A stretch of 53,681 nt of DNA from Thermodesulfobacteriota bacterium. Its GTDB lineage: Bacteria > Desulfobacterota > Thermodesulfobacteria > Thermodesulfobacteriales > Thermodesulfobacteriaceae. Below the pieces are notes generated by a model, which did not search any database, was not told the DNA's origin, and saw nothing but the letters and a program-made list of their open reading frames with translations. Location of the stretch: the NCBI GenBank assembly GCA_030578315.1, contig JAUQQL010000004.1:1-53681 (forward strand). Direction: 5' to 3'. The position numbers were made by a program, and so were the translations under genes. Shown in pieces: positions 45,652 to 52,667 of the stretch (positions are counted from its first letter, which is position 1; the number at the start of each line of letters is the position of its first letter).

Positions 45652-46743
45652 ATGATAAGAAATTGGTTTGCTACTCGCTGGGGGATAATTGTAGTGGGTA
45701 TTTTGATTGGCGTTATTAGTCCTTTACTGCAGAAAGCGGGTAATCCTCCTAATATGGGAATTTGTGTAGCTTGTATGGAAAGAGATATTGCAGGGGCTTT
45801 AGGACTTCATAGAGTTGAAGTGGTTCAGTATATGAGACCTGAAATTCTAGGATTTGTTTTAGGAGCTTTTGTGTCTGCCCTGATTTTTAAGGAATTTCGT
45901 CCTAGAGGTGGTTCGGCTTCTTTTGTACGTTTTATTTTAGGTGTTTTTGCTATGATAGGAGCTTTAGTATTTTTGGGATGTCCTTGGAGAACTCTTTTAA
46001 GGCTTGCAGGGGGCGACTTTAATGCTATTTTTGGTTTAGCTGGACTTATAGTAGGAGTGGGAATAGGAACTATATTTTTTAAGATAGGATATTCTCTGGG
46101 GAGGACTCAAAATTTGGCTTCTCCCCTTTTAGGAGTAAGTTTCCCAGTTTTAATATTAGGACTTTTAATTATTTTTCTTTTTGATCCCCAACCTGAAGGG
46201 CAAGCTCGTGGTAAAATTCTTTTTTATAGTCTTCAAGGTCCAGGAGCTATGCATGCTCCTTTGGAAATTTCATTGTTAGCTGGTTTATTTATAGGATTTT
46301 TAGCTCAAAGAAGCAGATTTTGCACTATGGGTGCTTTCAGAGACCTCATTCTTTTTAGGCAATTTCATCTATTTTTAGGAGTTTTAGCTTTTGCAATAAC
46401 AGCTTTTATAGTAAACCTTATTTTAGGTCAATTTAAACCTGGATTTGAAAATCAGCCTATTGCTCACACTATGCAAGTCTGGAATTTTTTAGGTATGGTT
46501 CTAGCAGGACTTGCTTTTGCTTTAGCAGGAGGATGCCCTGGCAGACAACTAATTCTTTCTGGAGAGGGAGATATGGATGCAGCTATTTTTGTAGTAGGAA
46601 TGATTGTAGGAGCTGCTATTTCTCATAATTTTGGACTAGCAAGTTCACCAAAAGGTGTAGGACCTTATGGACCAATTGCTGTGATAATTGGCTTAATGGT
46701 TTGTGTAATTATTGGAATATTAGGAAGGTATAAGAAGATTTAA
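45652..46743 (+). CDS. yedE: YedE-family membrane transporter (selenium/sulfur type)
   Basis: Multi-span membrane protein of the YeeE/YedE family. The signature NMGICVACMERDIAGALGLH near residue 35 and the repeated GDFNAIFGLAGLIVGVG, FCTMGAFRDLILF and GGCPGRQLILSGEGD show the cysteine-containing pore elements that carry thiosulfate, sulfite or selenium compounds. This N-terminal form matches the YedE subgroup found beside selenium or tusA genes. 363 residues. GGGAGGACTGG precedes the ATG. It is followed in one operon by a tusA-like gene. Confidence 0.88.
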   Translation: MIRNWFATRWGIIVVGILIGVISPLLQKAGNPPNMGICVACMERDIAGALGLHRVEVVQYMRPEILGFVLGAFVSALIFKEFRPRGGSASFVRFILGVFAMIGALVFLGCPWRTLLRLAGGDFNAIFGLAGLIVGVGIGTIFFKIGYSLGRTQNLASPLLGVSFPVLILGLLIIFLFDPQPEGQARGKILFYSLQGPGAMHAPLEISLLAGLFIGFLAQRSRFCTMGAFRDLILFRQFHLFLGVLAFAITAFIVNLILGQFKPGFENQPIAHTMQVWNFLGMVLAGLAFALAGGCPGRQLILSGEGDMDAAIFVVGMIVGAAISHNFGLASSPKGVGPYGPIAVIIGLMVCVIIGILGRYKKI

Positions 46744-46761
46744 AAAATGGAGGTTTTTAAT

Positions 46762-46980
46762 ATGAGAGAAATAGTGGATGCTAGAGGACTTTCTTGTCCG
46801 GAACCTGTTATCCTTACTCTTTCGGCTATCAAGAGACTTGAAAAGGGAGAAATAGAAATCTTAGTAGACACCGACACTTCTAAGGAAAATGTTATAAGGG
46901 CTTCTAGTTCTATGGGATGGATAGTTTTGGAGATAAAAAAAGAAAATTCTGGATATCGCATCTTAATTAAAAAGGATTAA
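46762..46980 (+). CDS. TusA/SirA-like sulfur carrier protein
   Basis: Small sulfur-relay protein with the redox Cys-Pro motif in LSCPEPVILTL at the start of helix 1 (residue 11 in the form starting at 46762). I choose the second ATG (46762), which has GGAGG and a usual N-terminus; the earlier ATG at 46747 adds five residues. YedF, its longer relative in selenium loci, has an extra C-terminal domain that is missing here. Only 72 residues. The next gene is 2 nt away. Confidence 0.9.
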   Translation: MREIVDARGLSCPEPVILTLSAIKRLEKGEIEILVDTDTSKENVIRASSSMGWIVLEIKKENSGYRILIKKD

Positions 46981-46982
46981 AA

Positions 46983-47543
46983 ATGAAATTTCTGGAAAAA
47001 GTTAAAAATATCTTTAACGACTTTAAAAAAGAAAAAAAATATTCTTTAGATAAAATGCTTTTGATTTTTGAAAATACTTCCGAAGTAATAAAAGCTGAAA
47101 AAGTTTTAAAGGAAAACGGGTTTAAAATTAAGGTGGTAGGACCTCCTTCTTCAGTAAGAAAAGGGTGCGATTTAGCTATAGAGGTTTTTCTTATTGAGAT
47201 TCTTAGAATCTTGGAAGTTTTAAAGAAATTTAATCTTGTGCCTTTGGAATGTTTACCTTTAAGTGATGAAACTTTAAAACCTGTAGACATCTTTCAGGTA
47301 AAAAATCTTGGAGAATATCTTATGGTTAGAGCGGCTAATATGAAAATTACAATTCATAAAAAAACTTTAAAAATTGTTAATATTTCAGGAGGAGGATGTC
47401 CAGATGTTCCTTACTTGGCTGCTAAGCTTATAGGTTGTTTTCTTAATCATTGCCCAGAGCCTAAAGACTTAGGATATACCCTTTGTGGATATGCTCTTCA
47501 TTTGGCTTATGAAAAAGCTAAAGAACTTTTATGCTCGGAATAG
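46983..47543 (+). CDS. DUF3343-type protein with a cysteine-rich C-terminal domain
   Basis: Residues about 22-85 (KMLLIFENTSEVIKAEKVLK, IKVVGPPSSVRKGCDLAIE) fit the DUF3343 domain, a small putative sulfur- or selenium-handling fold found beside YedF/TusA. The second half is less familiar, with GGGCPDVPYLAAKLIGC, FLNHCPEP and YTLCGYALHLAY; several cysteines and a Cys near the C-terminus suggest persulfide or metal chemistry. 186 residues. It overlaps the next gene by 13 bp. Confidence 0.72.
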   Translation: MKFLEKVKNIFNDFKKEKKYSLDKMLLIFENTSEVIKAEKVLKENGFKIKVVGPPSSVRKGCDLAIEVFLIEILRILEVLKKFNLVPLECLPLSDETLKPVDIFQVKNLGEYLMVRAANMKITIHKKTLKIVNISGGGCPDVPYLAAKLIGCFLNHCPEPKDLGYTLCGYALHLAYEKAKELLCSE

Positions 47544-48415
47544 TAGGCACAGTCCCTGAGGAAAAATTCCCTCTCATTTTTTCTTCAGTTAATCTAAAAG
47601 AAAATAACTATCTTGAGGTAAATAAAAAAGAAATTTTAATAGAAAGAGGAACTCCAGCTTTAATTGCTTCAGCATGTAAAGTTTTAGAATTTTTTAAAAA
47701 AGAAAGTCCACAAGCTTATTTAGTTGGAGATACAGGAAAAGGAGAAGGGAGTAGAAAGCTTTATTCTTTTCTAACTGAAGACCTACCTAAACGAAGTTTT
47801 AAAGTTTTAACTTTTCATTATCTTTTACCTGAAGTAGATTCTTGTAGTAAAATAATTTTTACTCTAGAGGAACTCCCTTTTAAACCTTTTCTTATAGCAG
47901 ATGCTGGTTTTATGTATGCTGTTAAAATGACAGGATATGCAAGATTTTTTGATTTATTCACTCCTGATCCAGGAGAACTTGCCTTTTTAGCAGATGAAAA
48001 AGCACCTCATCCTTTTTATACTCGTGGATTTCTACTTCAAGAAGAAAACCAAGTGGAAAAGTTGATAGAAAGAGCTTATTACTACAATAATATTCCTAAA
48101 TATCTTTTAGTTAAAGGTAAAAAAGACTATATAGTAGTTGACGGAAAAATAAAAGAAGTAGTAGAAGAGCCTTTTGTTGAAGTTTTAGAAGCTATAGGAG
48201 GAACGGGTGACACTTTAACAGGTATAGTTTCAGCCTTAATTTTGTGTGGTTTTGAACCTGTTGAAGCTTGTTTTTTGGCCTCCAAAACTAATCGTTTATC
48301 TGGACATTTAGCCAATCCAACTCCTGCAACTTCTGTAAAAGAAATAATTCCTTATATTCCTCAAGCTTTGGAAATTCTTCTAGCTAATTTTCGTAAAACT
48401 AATCTTACTTTTTGA
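47531..48415 (+). CDS. NAD(P)HX-dehydratase-like / ribokinase-fold protein
   Basis: Resembles the YjeF C-terminal (NAXD, ATP/ADP-dependent NAD(P)HX dehydratase) and related sugar-kinase folds: FTPDPGELAFLADEKA corresponds to the TPHPGE region, YLLVKGKKDYIVVDG to the KG loop, and AIGGTGDTLTGIVSALI to the GTGD phosphate motif. No epimerase half is attached. The partner genes suggest a role in sulfur or selenium metabolism, not only NAD repair. 294 residues; the last gene of the operon. Confidence 0.75.
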   Translation: MLGIVGTVPEEKFPLIFSSVNLKENNYLEVNKKEILIERGTPALIASACKVLEFFKKESPQAYLVGDTGKGEGSRKLYSFLTEDLPKRSFKVLTFHYLLPEVDSCSKIIFTLEELPFKPFLIADAGFMYAVKMTGYARFFDLFTPDPGELAFLADEKAPHPFYTRGFLLQEENQVEKLIERAYYYNNIPKYLLVKGKKDYIVVDGKIKEVVEEPFVEVLEAIGGTGDTLTGIVSALILCGFEPVEACFLASKTNRLSGHLANPTPATSVKEIIPYIPQALEILLANFRKTNLTF

Positions 48416-48481
48416 AAATAAAAGAAATTTTTTTTACATTAAGTTCCGTTGGTTTTTAGAAAATAATACAGAAAGTCTTAT

Positions 48482-48670
48482 CCAAGAGTTGACAAAGGTA
48501 GAGAAGCTCTAACAGGAGTCTTAAAGAAAGGTTTTATAGACTATAGGGAAGATGAGCTAAAAGAGGACATAAAGGGATTTAACCGAGAGCTTATGGAGTA
48601 TTTGATCTGGTATAATACGGAGAGGGTTCATTCAGGCATAGGGAAAAGCTCCTTTGGGGTATTTTTGTGA
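48482..48670 (+). pseudogene. C-terminal fragment of an IS481/IS3-type transposase (rve integrase)
   Basis: A stretch of 63 codons reads ...KGFIDYREDELKEDIKGFNRELMEYLIWYNTERVHSGIGK and ends FGVFL-stop. The FIDY and YLIWYNTERVHS core with the acidic turn is the C-terminal end of the catalytic domain of IS481-like transposases. There is no upstream remainder: it is a deletion remnant. About 30 nt later TGTCAAGCATTTGTATACGT on the minus strand (48711-48730) looks like the element's inverted-repeat end. Confidence 0.78.
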
Positions 48671-48724
48671 TAAGTTTTTAAAAAATTCAGCCGAGGCTAA
48701 AATCATATGGACGTATACAAATGC

Positions 48725-50378: not shown

Positions 50379-51359
50379 ATGCTTTTAGCCTTAGAAACTT
50401 CGTGTGACGAAACCGGGGTAGCTTTATTTTCTGAAGAAGGTTTTTTAATTAAACATTTTCTTTACTCTCAAGTAGCAATTCATTCTCCTTTTGGGGGAAT
50501 TGTTCCAGAAATAGCTTCTCGTAAGCAATTAGAGGTGTTACCTTCTTTGGTTAGGAAGCTTTTAAGAGAAACTTATACTTCTTTAGATAAAATTAAAGCA
50601 ATAGCAGTAACTTTTGGTCCAGGTCTTATTGGTTCACTTTTGGTAGGTGTTTCTTTTGCTAAAGCCTTAAGCTGGTCTTTGAAAGTTCCTCTTATAAAAG
50701 TTGATCACCTGGAAGCTCATTTAAGAAGTATTTTTTTAGAAAAAGAAGTTGAGTTCCCTTACATAGGTCTTTTAGTATCCGGAGGTCACACGGCTTTATT
50801 TTTAGTAACTTCTTGGGAAGAATATTACCTTTTAGGTCATACTAGAGACGATGCAGCAGGAGAGGCTTTTGATAAGATAGCCAAACTTTTAGGGCTTGGA
50901 TATCCAGGAGGTCCTTTTATAAGTTTTTGGGCTAAAAAAGGCAACAGGAAAGCTATATTTTTCCCTCGCCCTATGTTAGAAGATCCTAATTACGATTTTA
51001 GTTTTTCTGGACTTAAAACTGCAGTAGTAAACTTTGTAAAAAATAACTCTTCTTTTAAGTTAGAAGATATTTGCGCAAGTTTTGAAGAAGCAATAGTAGA
51101 GGTATTGGTTGAAAAAAGCTTAAAAGCTTCCAAAGAACTAAAAATTCCACGAATAGTAGTTTCTGGAGGGGTAGCTTCTAATTTTCGTTTAAGGGAGTTT
51201 TTTTTTCAAAGAGCTAAGGAAGAAGGTATAGAAGTATTTTTTCCATCACCTGAATTTTGCACTGATAATGCTGCTATGGTAGGTATTGTAGGATGGAAAA
51301 AATGGCAGAAAAAAGAACTAGCCTCTTTAGAAGATGAACCTTATGCTAGAGCTTTTTAA
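50379..51359 (+). CDS. tsaD: tRNA threonylcarbamoyladenosine transferase TsaD
   Basis: Transfers threonylcarbamoyl to A37 of tRNA with TsaB and TsaE. 326 residues: LLALETSCDETGVALF at the start, the metal-binding H110 and H114 (VDHLEAHLRS), LLVSGGHTALFLV, the GEAFDKIAKLLGLGYPGGP phosphate region, and FCTDNAAMVGIVG with the third ligand Asp. Its last 33 bp overlap the end of the regulator gene on the other strand, beside a 12-bp tandem repeat. Confidence 0.96.
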   Translation: MLLALETSCDETGVALFSEEGFLIKHFLYSQVAIHSPFGGIVPEIASRKQLEVLPSLVRKLLRETYTSLDKIKAIAVTFGPGLIGSLLVGVSFAKALSWSLKVPLIKVDHLEAHLRSIFLEKEVEFPYIGLLVSGGHTALFLVTSWEEYYLLGHTRDDAAGEAFDKIAKLLGLGYPGGPFISFWAKKGNRKAIFFPRPMLEDPNYDFSFSGLKTAVVNFVKNNSSFKLEDICASFEEAIVEVLVEKSLKASKELKIPRIVVSGGVASNFRLREFFFQRAKEEGIEVFFPSPEFCTDNAAMVGIVGWKKWQKKELASLEDEPYARAF

Positions 51360-52667
51360 TTCTTCTTTTAATTCTTCTTTTAATTCTTCTTTTAATTCTT
51401 CTTTTAATTCTTCTTTTAATTCTTCTTTTAATTCTTCTTTTATACCTAATTCTTTTATCTTTTTCTGCAAATAGGCTCTCTCTAAACCTATTTCTTTAGC
51501 TGTCTGAGAAATATTTCCTTTAAATTCTAAAAGTTTTCTTTTCAAAAATTCTCTTTCAAAAAGCCATTTAGCTGTTTTATAATCTTTTTCTTGAAACCAG
51601 GGTTCAGAAATGCCCTTATAAAAATTACCCTCTATTAAATTCTTAAAGTCTGAAGGTAGGTCTTCGTATCCTATTTCTGTGTCTGAAGAAATGATAACTA
51701 GTCTTTCAATAAAATTTTTGAGCTCTCTTACATTTCCAGGCCAATCATACTTCATTAAAGCTGAAATAACTTCTTTCTTGAGTTTTTTTCTTCCGAGTCC
51801 GGTTTTTAAAGACAATTCCTCTAAAAACTCTTCTACTAAAATAGGGATGTCTTCTTTTCTTTCTCTAAGAGGAGGAATGTAGATAGGGAAAACATTTAAT
51901 CGATAAAAGAGGTCTTCTCTAAAATTTCCTTTCTTAATCTCTTCTTGAAGATTTTTATTAGTAGCTCCTATTATTCTTACATCAACTTCAATAGATTTGA
52001 TACCTCCCAGTCTTTCTATTTTTTTTTCTTGGAGAACTCTTAAAACTTTAGCTTGAGCAGAAAGACTCATGTCTCCTACTTCATCCAAAAAAATAGTTCC
52101 TCCATGAGCTTGCTCAAATTTACCTTTTTTAGAAGTTTGTGCCCCTGTAAAAGCTCCTTTTTCGTATCCAAAAAGTTCAGCTTCAATAAGAGTGTCTGGA
52201 ATTCCTGCACAATTAATTTCTACAAAAGGTCCGTTAGCTCTTGGGGAATAAAAATGAATAAGTTTAGCCACTAGTTCTTTCCCTACCCCAGATTCTCCAA
52301 ATATTAAAACTGTAGTATCTGTAGGGGCTGCTTTAAGAATAAGTTCTCTTACCTTTTTTATAGCAGAAGAAACTCCAGAAAGTTTAATTTTGCCAAAAAT
52401 ACTTTCTTTTAATCTTCTATTTTCTTCTTCTAGACTAACTAATTTTAAAGCGTTTTCTAAGGTAATTAAAATTCTCTCATAAGATAAAGGTTTTTCTATA
52501 AAGTCAAAAGCTCCCATTTTTATAGCTTTTACTGCAGTTTCAATAGTGCCATGTCCAGAAATGATAATAACTGAAATATGAGGAAACTGAGTTTTTATTT
52601 CTTTTAATAACTCAAAACCATCTACATCTTTTAGCCATAGGTCTAAAAAAACAACTTGAGGAGGATT
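51327..52667 (-). CDS. NtrC-type sigma-54 response regulator, N-terminus cut at the 52.67-kb junction
   Basis: Activator of sigma-54 RNA polymerase. The end of a receiver domain is readable upstream of the first ATG (52517): VVFLDLWLKDVDGFELL with the phosphorylated Asp, IIISGHGTIETAVKAIKMGA and FIEKPL. The first 40 or so receiver residues are missing beyond 52667. The AAA+ domain is intact: GESGVGKELVAKLIHF (Walker A), ELFGYEKGAFTGA (sigma-54 contact), GGTIFLDEVGDM (Walker B), then a Fis-type helix-turn-helix (GNISQTAKEIGLERAYLQKK). The C-terminus is an added KEEL heptad (seven copies) and SSSIRFIF, read through the tsaD end. No histidine kinase nearby. Confidence 0.88.
   Translation of the reverse strand, partial: NPPQVVFLDLWLKDVDGFELLKEIKTQFPHISVIIISGHGTIETAVKAIKMGAFDFIEKPLSYERILITLENALKLVSLEEENRRLKESIFGKIKLSGVSSAIKKVRELILKAAPTDTTVLIFGESGVGKELVAKLIHFYSPRANGPFVEINCAGIPDTLIEAELFGYEKGAFTGAQTSKKGKFEQAHGGTIFLDEVGDMSLSAQAKVLRVLQEKKIERLGGIKSIEVDVRIIGATNKNLQEEIKKGNFREDLFYRLNVFPIYIPPLRERKEDIPILVEEFLEELSLKTGLGRKKLKKEVISALMKYDWPGNVRELKNFIERLVIISSDTEIGYEDLPSDFKNLIEGNFYKGISEPWFQEKDYKTAKWLFEREFLKRKLLEFKGNISQTAKEIGLERAYLQKKIKELGIKEELKEELKEELKEELKEELKEELKEELKSSSIRFIF
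51358..51441. repeat. Tandem repeat, seven copies of a 12-bp unit
   Basis: AATTCTTCTTTT occurs seven times head to tail (84 bp) with no visible mismatch. On the minus strand each unit is one KEEL of the regulator. It begins at the tsaD stop codon, so tsaD is unaffected while the regulator's C-terminus can lengthen or shorten by four residues. Confidence 0.97.

Follow-up and report, generated by a model that had tools for sequence, protein, structure and literature searches.

YedE has been proposed to act in selenium transport, possibly as an exporter, and DUF3343 as a selenium chaperone, both in the company of selenocysteine (Sec) lyase, YedF and a LysR subfamily (Lin et al. 2015, PMC5322559), and these proposals are repeated in PMC9312934. 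In the sections of these papers drawn on here, YedE, a SirA/TusA-like protein and DUF3343 are already published as selenium genes (PMC5322559), the yedE transcript of Methanococcus maripaludis rises on selenium depletion, and no dedicated selenium transporter is said to be known in any organism (PMC11097638). In this work we have analysed a stretch of 53,681 nucleotides (the window; contig JAUQQL010000004.1 of a Thermodesulfobacteriota bacterium) that carries an operon of four genes, coding for a YedE permease, a TusA-like carrier, a DUF3343 protein with an added C-terminal half (the C-half) and a divergent NAXD/ribokinase-like protein, here called NAXDl. Judged by their distribution over the genomes sampled, the C-half and NAXDl form an obligate pair, and it is these two parts, linked to each other more tightly than to yedE, that make up the real unit. 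We propose, with a probability of about 0.55, that this is a selenium-assimilation operon feeding SelD, in which the pair would be an obligate, probably ATP-using unit and partly an alternative to an aminotransferase branch. We found no paper in the open-access literature that links a NAXD-like protein to selenium, or that describes the C-half or NAXDl, and the pair probably points to an undescribed step in selenium use.

Co-occurrence of NAXDl and the C-terminal half

The sample comprised 395 genomes of 245 genera, drawn evenly over the phylum. A NAXDl profile built from 14 proteins (threshold 1e-15) found the protein in 99 genomes and 66 genera, the weakest whole match being 8.5e-88, with one match in each genome except G054, which gave two frames at a single locus (L048). 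The C-half profile, built from nine sequences (E <= 1e-6), matched 100 genomes: all 99 with NAXDl, and hence all 66 genera, and one of the other 296. In the latter, G144, the match is partial (positions 2-57 of 88), contains a stop and represents a relic. The co-occurrence has a Fisher p of ~6e-94, a value calculated over genomes that are not independent, shared ancestry being ignored. The sister species G002 and G008 of the window's genus are without NAXDl, C-half and YedE alike.

The same picture emerged from 103 loci, which are the surroundings of the NAXDl genes in these genomes and in four further members of the genus (G003, G004, G006 and G009), the window included. In 101 of them NAXDl is preceded on its own strand by a DUF3343 open reading frame (ORF); in L166 (G273:C143) DUF3343, C-half and NAXDl are naturally fused in one ORF, and in L046 the contig ends inside NAXDl. 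Counting as far as the beginning of the NAXDl domain, DUF3343 and NAXDl lie no more than 30 nt apart in 94 of the 101 loci, with an overlap in 77. The gap exceeds 60 nt in seven (L048, L115, L116, L119, L130, L142 and L150), and several of these loci have ORFs that are broken or short; in L142 the locus scan recognised the N-terminal DUF3343 domain only, and the genome profile search gives the C-half as two short pieces.

A link to YedE is also supported. YedE was found (E 1e-50) in 179 of the 395 genomes, 94 of the 99 with NAXDl versus 85 of the 296 others. Among the five NAXDl genomes without a YedE call, G063, G077, G172 and G198 have YedE as two ORFs adjoining the pair, and in G304 the contig ends. 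Within the stretches fetched around the 103 loci, 97 hold a YedE ORF and 84 a TusA ORF; of the six without YedE, three meet a contig end (L043, L046, L141) and three have YedE elsewhere in the genome (L112, L139 and L143, from G060, G408 and G280). For the five parts, pairwise distances correlate with one another (r 0.77-0.84, 83 loci). The initial annotation had tied the kinase-like gene to yedE and DUF3343, and had considered that it could prove a stand-alone NAXD with no linkage to yedE in other genomes; the neighbourhood survey bears out the former and contradicts the latter.

Relatives were also found in other phyla. In Peptoclostridium acidaminophilum (Bacillota), plasmid EAL2_808p carries yedE, tusA, DUF3343 and a gene annotated as 'NAD(P)H-hydrate dehydratase' in the same order and with the same 13-nt overlap as in the window (145 bits with the C-half profile, 418 with that of NAXDl). 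Plasmid AP018183 of Nostoc carneum (Cyanobacteriota) has a NAXDl gene and a C-half fragment adjoining two genes of 387 and 1,707 bp, and elsewhere a shortened yedE adjoining a copy of the same two genes. Because these operon pieces (L199 and L200), ~143 kb apart, or 88 kb if the circle is followed in the other direction, each adjoin one of two 2,130-bp stretches that are 100% identical, with genes annotated as hypothetical, the arrangement fits an operon split by a mobile element. Both records annotate NAXDl as an NADHX repair enzyme (NAD(P)H-hydrate dehydratase or nnrD). Scans of viral contigs with the NAXDl and DUF3343C alignments gave no relative.

The four genes and their products

The four tightly packed ORFs reported in the initial annotation were all confirmed in the window sequence, in place and in strand (Table 1). 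YedE and TusA are separated by 3 nt (18 nt from the likely tusA start), TusA and DUF3343 by 2 nt, and DUF3343 and NAXDl overlap by 13 nt. The start of tusA is probably the ATG at 46762 and not the listed ATG at 46747, because a GGAGG at 46749-46753 precedes the former and most relatives are listed with 70-72 aa. Thermodesulfobacterium hveragerdense, a named relative reached by protein search, also has the four-gene set, preceded by activase-like and LysR-like genes (both names by reading).

Table 1. Positions in the window of the operon genes and of the C-half
Feature	Position	Strand	Evidence
YedE, selenium-type 'Sulf_transp' permease, 363 aa	45652..46743	+	TIGR04112 equivalog 488 bits; Cys 38, 41, 110, 224, 295 conserved
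TusA-like single-domain carrier, 72 aa (ORF listed from 46747)	46762..46980	+	PF01206 68.5 bits; CPEP motif; upstream GGAGG
DUF3343 protein with added C-terminal half, 186 aa	46983..47543	+	PF11823 69.6 bits, residues 25-89
C-terminal half ('D3343C'), SGGGCPDVP ... TLCGY	47274..47537	+	found in 100/395 genomes; no trusted Pfam match
NAXDl, divergent NAXD/ribokinase-like protein, 294 aa	47531..48415	+	PF01256 38.7 bits; keeps TPD..GE, KG, GGTGD; N-terminal part remade

The selenium-type signature first noticed in YedE holds over the whole protein (TIGR04112, cut-off 200, positions 2-337 of 337), whereas the models for TsuA thiosulfate transporters stay far under their cut-off (49.4 bits); its five cysteines are kept in 90-91 of 91 aligned copies. 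TusA belongs to its family (PF01206, cut-off 28.6) with the CPxP motif, and its Cys17 (numbering of the 77-aa ORF) is kept in 93 of 93 aligned copies. That it lacks the second YedF domain, as initially described, is supported by the two-domain YedF model TIGR03527, which gives 50.7 of 110 bits and covers positions 1-66 of 194.

Some loci depart from this layout. The gap between yedE and tusA is ~1.5 kb in L038 (G010), 241 bases in L036, and 3-27 bases in L034, L035, L037, L039 and L040. In L162, L164 and L165 (G172, G077 and G198) YedE consists of two ORFs downstream of the pair rather than a single upstream ORF, and might represent a transporter in two parts instead of a disrupted gene. L041 (G033) is an otherwise complete operon with YedE in three overlapping ORFs; this break and that of NAXDl in L048 (G054), also within an otherwise complete operon, are decay or sequencing error.

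The DUF3343 protein contains the Se_S_carrier domain (PF11823), whose C62 is kept in 101 of 102 copies; the residues outside 25-89, with a C-half of about 90 residues, have no significant Pfam match. FKBP26_IF was considered for the C-half and is not trusted, the match being weak in five of nine C-halves scanned (best E 0.0025). The C-half had been called Cys-rich, which is right for the window copy and fails across copies, where C139 (100 of 100) and C168 (98 of 100) are conserved and C184 is kept in 62 of 100. A profile search of solved structures with DUF3343C gave a best E of 0.66. The AlphaFold model of DUF3343C, from a two-row alignment, is middling, with a mean predicted local distance difference test (pLDDT) score of 65 and mostly 39-70 in the C-half, and since Foldseek found no match to it at E <= 0.001, we do not claim a fold for the C-half.

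In NAXDl, GGTGD (D227) and K195 are present in 99 of 99 copies, and T144-P145-D146 with E149 and the K195-G196 pair in 96-99 of 99. From what is known of the ribokinase-like superfamily, we take these conserved motifs to be probably the ATP site and the catalytic Asp or base. NAXDl also has conserved residues of its own (G66, D67, G69, G73, S74, H96, D124, A125, M128, Y129, K132, H160 and P161, in 97-99 of 99), forming motifs that set it apart from NnrD (GDxG...GS...Y, DA..MY..K and HPxY). Alignment with hhalign to six canonical NnrD sequences gave a probability of 97%, with GGTGD, KG and TPxxGE aligned. Those retained motifs and the database annotation favour an ordinary NAD(P)HX dehydratase, present in the operon by accidental co-transcription or for metabolite repair, yet several results make this very unlikely. 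The PF01256 match (cut-off 27) covers only profile positions 94-229 of 242, and family members match from about position 67-95 on (one from 153), leaving the N-terminal third unseen; the full-length dehydratase model TIGR00196 is not matched (34.4 of 129.85 bits). In a profile search of solved structures three ribokinase-like relatives were found, with thiazole kinase (1.9e-7) ahead of Nnr TM0922 (6e-4) and pyridoxal kinase (0.0026). Moreover, all 40 NAXDl genomes tested encode a separate, near full-length PF01256 protein (profile positions 1-2 to 229-242 of 242; open frames 517-701 aa long), and the window's own genome likewise has a separate NnrD, so NAXDl does not appear to be its genome's NADHX repair gene. 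An accidental neighbour would also sit badly with a DUF3343 that adjoins or is fused to NAXDl in 102 of 102 loci without a contig end there. Because thiazole kinase outranks Nnr and six of 14 family members also match Phos_pyr_kin, a role as a small-molecule kinase seems as open for NAXDl as one as a dehydratase.

Outside the operon, a stretch resembling an integrase-type transposase remnant (WYNTERVHSGIGKSSFGVF, by reading) lies at 48430-48680, between the operon and a tRNA-Val gene. A perfect 12-bp tandem repeat of 7.4 copies (51354-51442) encodes the (EELK)n tail of a minus-strand protein that reads as sigma-54-activator-like. Promoter and terminator scans gave no more matches than in shuffles, and at Rfam gathering thresholds the window, L049 and L197 gave tRNAs and no other RNA family.

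Selenium genes and the aminotransferase slot

The window's own genome, a 1.67-Mb draft, contains selA (615 bits) and selD (337 bits), the latter with one in-frame UGA in the context AAG-U-ASK, so the genes for which the initial annotation had proposed searching are there, selD itself being UGA-containing. Selenocysteine is the one selenium use found in this genome, since it has no match to TIGR01977 (E 1e-60), YqeB (1e-20) or selenouridine synthase (1e-20). Of the 395 genomes sampled, 346 have selD; among the 99 that carry NAXDl the number is 94. A selD-like ORF occurs in the fetched stretch of 26 of the 103 loci, on the same strand in 25 of them; to place all 26 directly beside the pair would be too generous, 15 lying within 300 nt downstream of NAXDl and the others some kb off or on the far side. 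The far ORFs are named by BLAST similarity to SelD only, and 14 of the 26 were matched by eye to TIGR00476 coordinates. In P. acidaminophilum selD lies ~210 nt behind the operon, on the other strand. Together with the selenium-type YedE and with the selA and selD genes of the genome, these neighbourhoods point to a selenium-utilisation operon and uphold the selenium context first suggested for it.

Clustering of the 103 loci gave further neighbours, named by reading: LysR-like proteins (18 loci), 2-hydroxyglutaryl-CoA-dehydratase-like proteins (12) and the activase of the latter (8). In G084 (C36:15254-32675), selA, a TIGR01977 aminotransferase, selD, NAXDl and YedE are grouped on the minus strand of a single contig, within ~18 kb. 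In L049 a selD with an in-frame UGA (2511-2663) follows immediately after a gene that reads as MoaB/MogA-like.

It could be asked whether the element handled is sulfur, thiosulfate or another sulfur species being imported, persulfide passed through TusA and DUF3343, and a sulfur acceptor activated by NAXDl. TusA carries sulfur, the TsuA transporters are remote relatives of YedE (49.4 bits) and no selD was detected in five of the 99 NAXDl genomes. Organisms that lack SelD can have DUF3343 too, according to the part of PMC5322559 cited here. We nevertheless regard this explanation as improbable: YedE reaches 488 bits on the selenium equivalog with the TsuA models far below cut-off, selD immediately follows the pair in 15 of 103 loci and adjoins the operon in Peptoclostridium, and selD (94 of 99) and selA (39 of 40 hand-picked) are found in nearly all NAXDl genomes. 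We consider it very probable that the locus serves the trafficking of selenium, or of selenium/sulfur, and contains an obligate pair.

Among the 85 YedE genomes without NAXDl, 16 were read: a class-V aminotransferase-like gene follows YedE-TusA in nine and selD in three, and in the remaining four neither was seen in the short stretch. We compared hand-picked genomes, 40 of the 99 with NAXDl and 40 of the 85 with YedE only, and TIGR01977 was above cut-off in 13 of the former versus 35 of the latter (p 8e-7), with one match below cut-off in the NAXDl genome G168. None of the 40 NAXDl genomes has it within 5 kb of YedE, versus at least 15 of the 40 others, a lower bound as YedE positions were listed for 31 of the 35, and with the NAXDl genome G033 judged by contig numbers only. 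These results suggest that the pair and the aminotransferase may do comparable jobs. Whether the pair actually stands in for the aminotransferase step is a closer call, and we put it at slightly under even odds; strict mutual exclusion is ruled out by the 13 of 40 genomes that have both. Two other candidate links were dropped, one to YqeB (selenium-dependent molybdenum hydroxylases; 7 of 40 NAXDl versus 17 of 38 YedE-only genomes) and one to selenouridine synthase (1 of 40 versus 4 of 40).

The same neighbourhoods bear on another possibility, that the unit serves selenium homeostasis and not supply, exporting, storing or detoxifying excess selenium with YedE as exporter. The LysR-like neighbours in 18 of 103 loci would agree with such a role, as would the suggestion that YedE may export (PMC5322559) and, in the part of PMC11097638 cited here, a yedE deletion in M. 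maripaludis without clear loss of selenium use. A directly downstream selD in 15 of 103 loci suits a supply chain better, as does a Sec-lyase-type gene in the slot after YedE-TusA in nine of 16 loci read, and we hold homeostasis to be unlikely, if less so than a sulfur pathway.

Assimilation of selenium for SelD is the reading we prefer, and several observations weigh against it. In the window's genome selD is on another contig, so the window copy has no selD beside it. SelD is common anyway, and its co-occurrence with NAXDl, taken alone, is weak evidence (Fisher p 0.008); the Fisher values ignore shared ancestry. The five NAXDl genomes in which selD was not found (G132, G149, G198, G304 and G399) include three that are >90% complete, the other two being ~80% complete. 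As selA occurs in all 38 hand-picked genomes that have selD but neither YedE nor NAXDl, the pair is not needed for selenocysteine and is an add-on to that trait. The aminotransferase alternative is not exclusive, and in G084 both occur in one cluster. In the same part of PMC11097638, deleting yedE in M. maripaludis produced no clear phenotype for selenium; a mild effect seen with selenocystine was judged unspecific. Finally, the structure models are poor, that of NAXDl (AlphaFold, two-row alignment) having a mean pLDDT of 45.

Proposed pathway and comparison with known systems

We propose that YedE imports a small selenium species, which TusA Cys17 would take as perselenide, and that Cys62 of DUF3343 together with Cys139 and Cys168 of the C-half could receive and present the selenium. 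NAXDl, with its conserved ribokinase-type ATP site and catalytic Asp and a remade substrate pocket, may then perform an ATP-dependent step, either on the C-half once loaded or on a small acceptor that binds to it, and the product would pass to SelD. In related genomes a class-V pyridoxal-phosphate (PLP) aminotransferase, of the Sec-lyase or Cys-desulfurase type, often follows YedE-TusA instead, and for this reason the pair might be a partly alternative branch that mobilises and delivers selenium. Both the order from import through TusA and DUF3343 to the kinase and the ATP-dependent chemistry are what we infer from sequence; a true ATP-dependent selenium step we consider rather less likely than not. 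It is similarly doubtful, if attractive, that DUF3343C and NAXDl constitute a new two-part selenium enzyme, which would use ATP, act before SelD, load or release selenium on a dedicated cysteine carrier, perhaps pick selenide from excess sulfide in sulfidic cells, and be able to replace the Sec-lyase/desulfurase-type enzyme.

The pair gives a clean handle on the question of how selenium enters the cell and is kept apart from sulfur, which it resembles chemically, before reaching SelD: two co-travelling genes in records of three phyla, one with a half that has no trusted Pfam match and the other annotated as NADHX repair, with a copy beside selD in a cultivated organism, P. acidaminophilum.

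The closest described system is the YedE/YedF/DUF3343/Sec-lyase cluster, with which the operon shares a selenium-type YedE (TIGR04112), a SirA/TusA-like protein, DUF3343 and a neighbourhood with SelD and LysR (PMC5322559). It differs in that TusA stands alone, without the DsrE-like half, that DUF3343 carries the extra C-half, and that NAXDl is added, often in the aminotransferase slot; C-half and NAXDl are unmentioned in the portion of the cluster description in PMC5322559 used here. Compared with single-domain DUF3343 (Se_S_carrier, PF11823), the protein described here has in common the N-terminal domain with its conserved Cys (C62), but bears an extra half of ~90 residues with two conserved Cys, present in our sample only alongside NAXDl, one relic excepted. 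NAXDl, like NnrD/NAXD (PF01256, TIGR00196), is ribokinase-like by profile and conserves GGTGD, KG and TPxxGE; unlike them, it has a remade N-terminal third, is paired with DUF3343C and was never the sole PF01256 protein in the 40 genomes. The class-V aminotransferase TIGR01977 occupies the same slot after YedE-TusA in nine of the 16 related loci read, although it is a PLP enzyme of unrelated fold, and its distribution is partly complementary to that of NAXDl.

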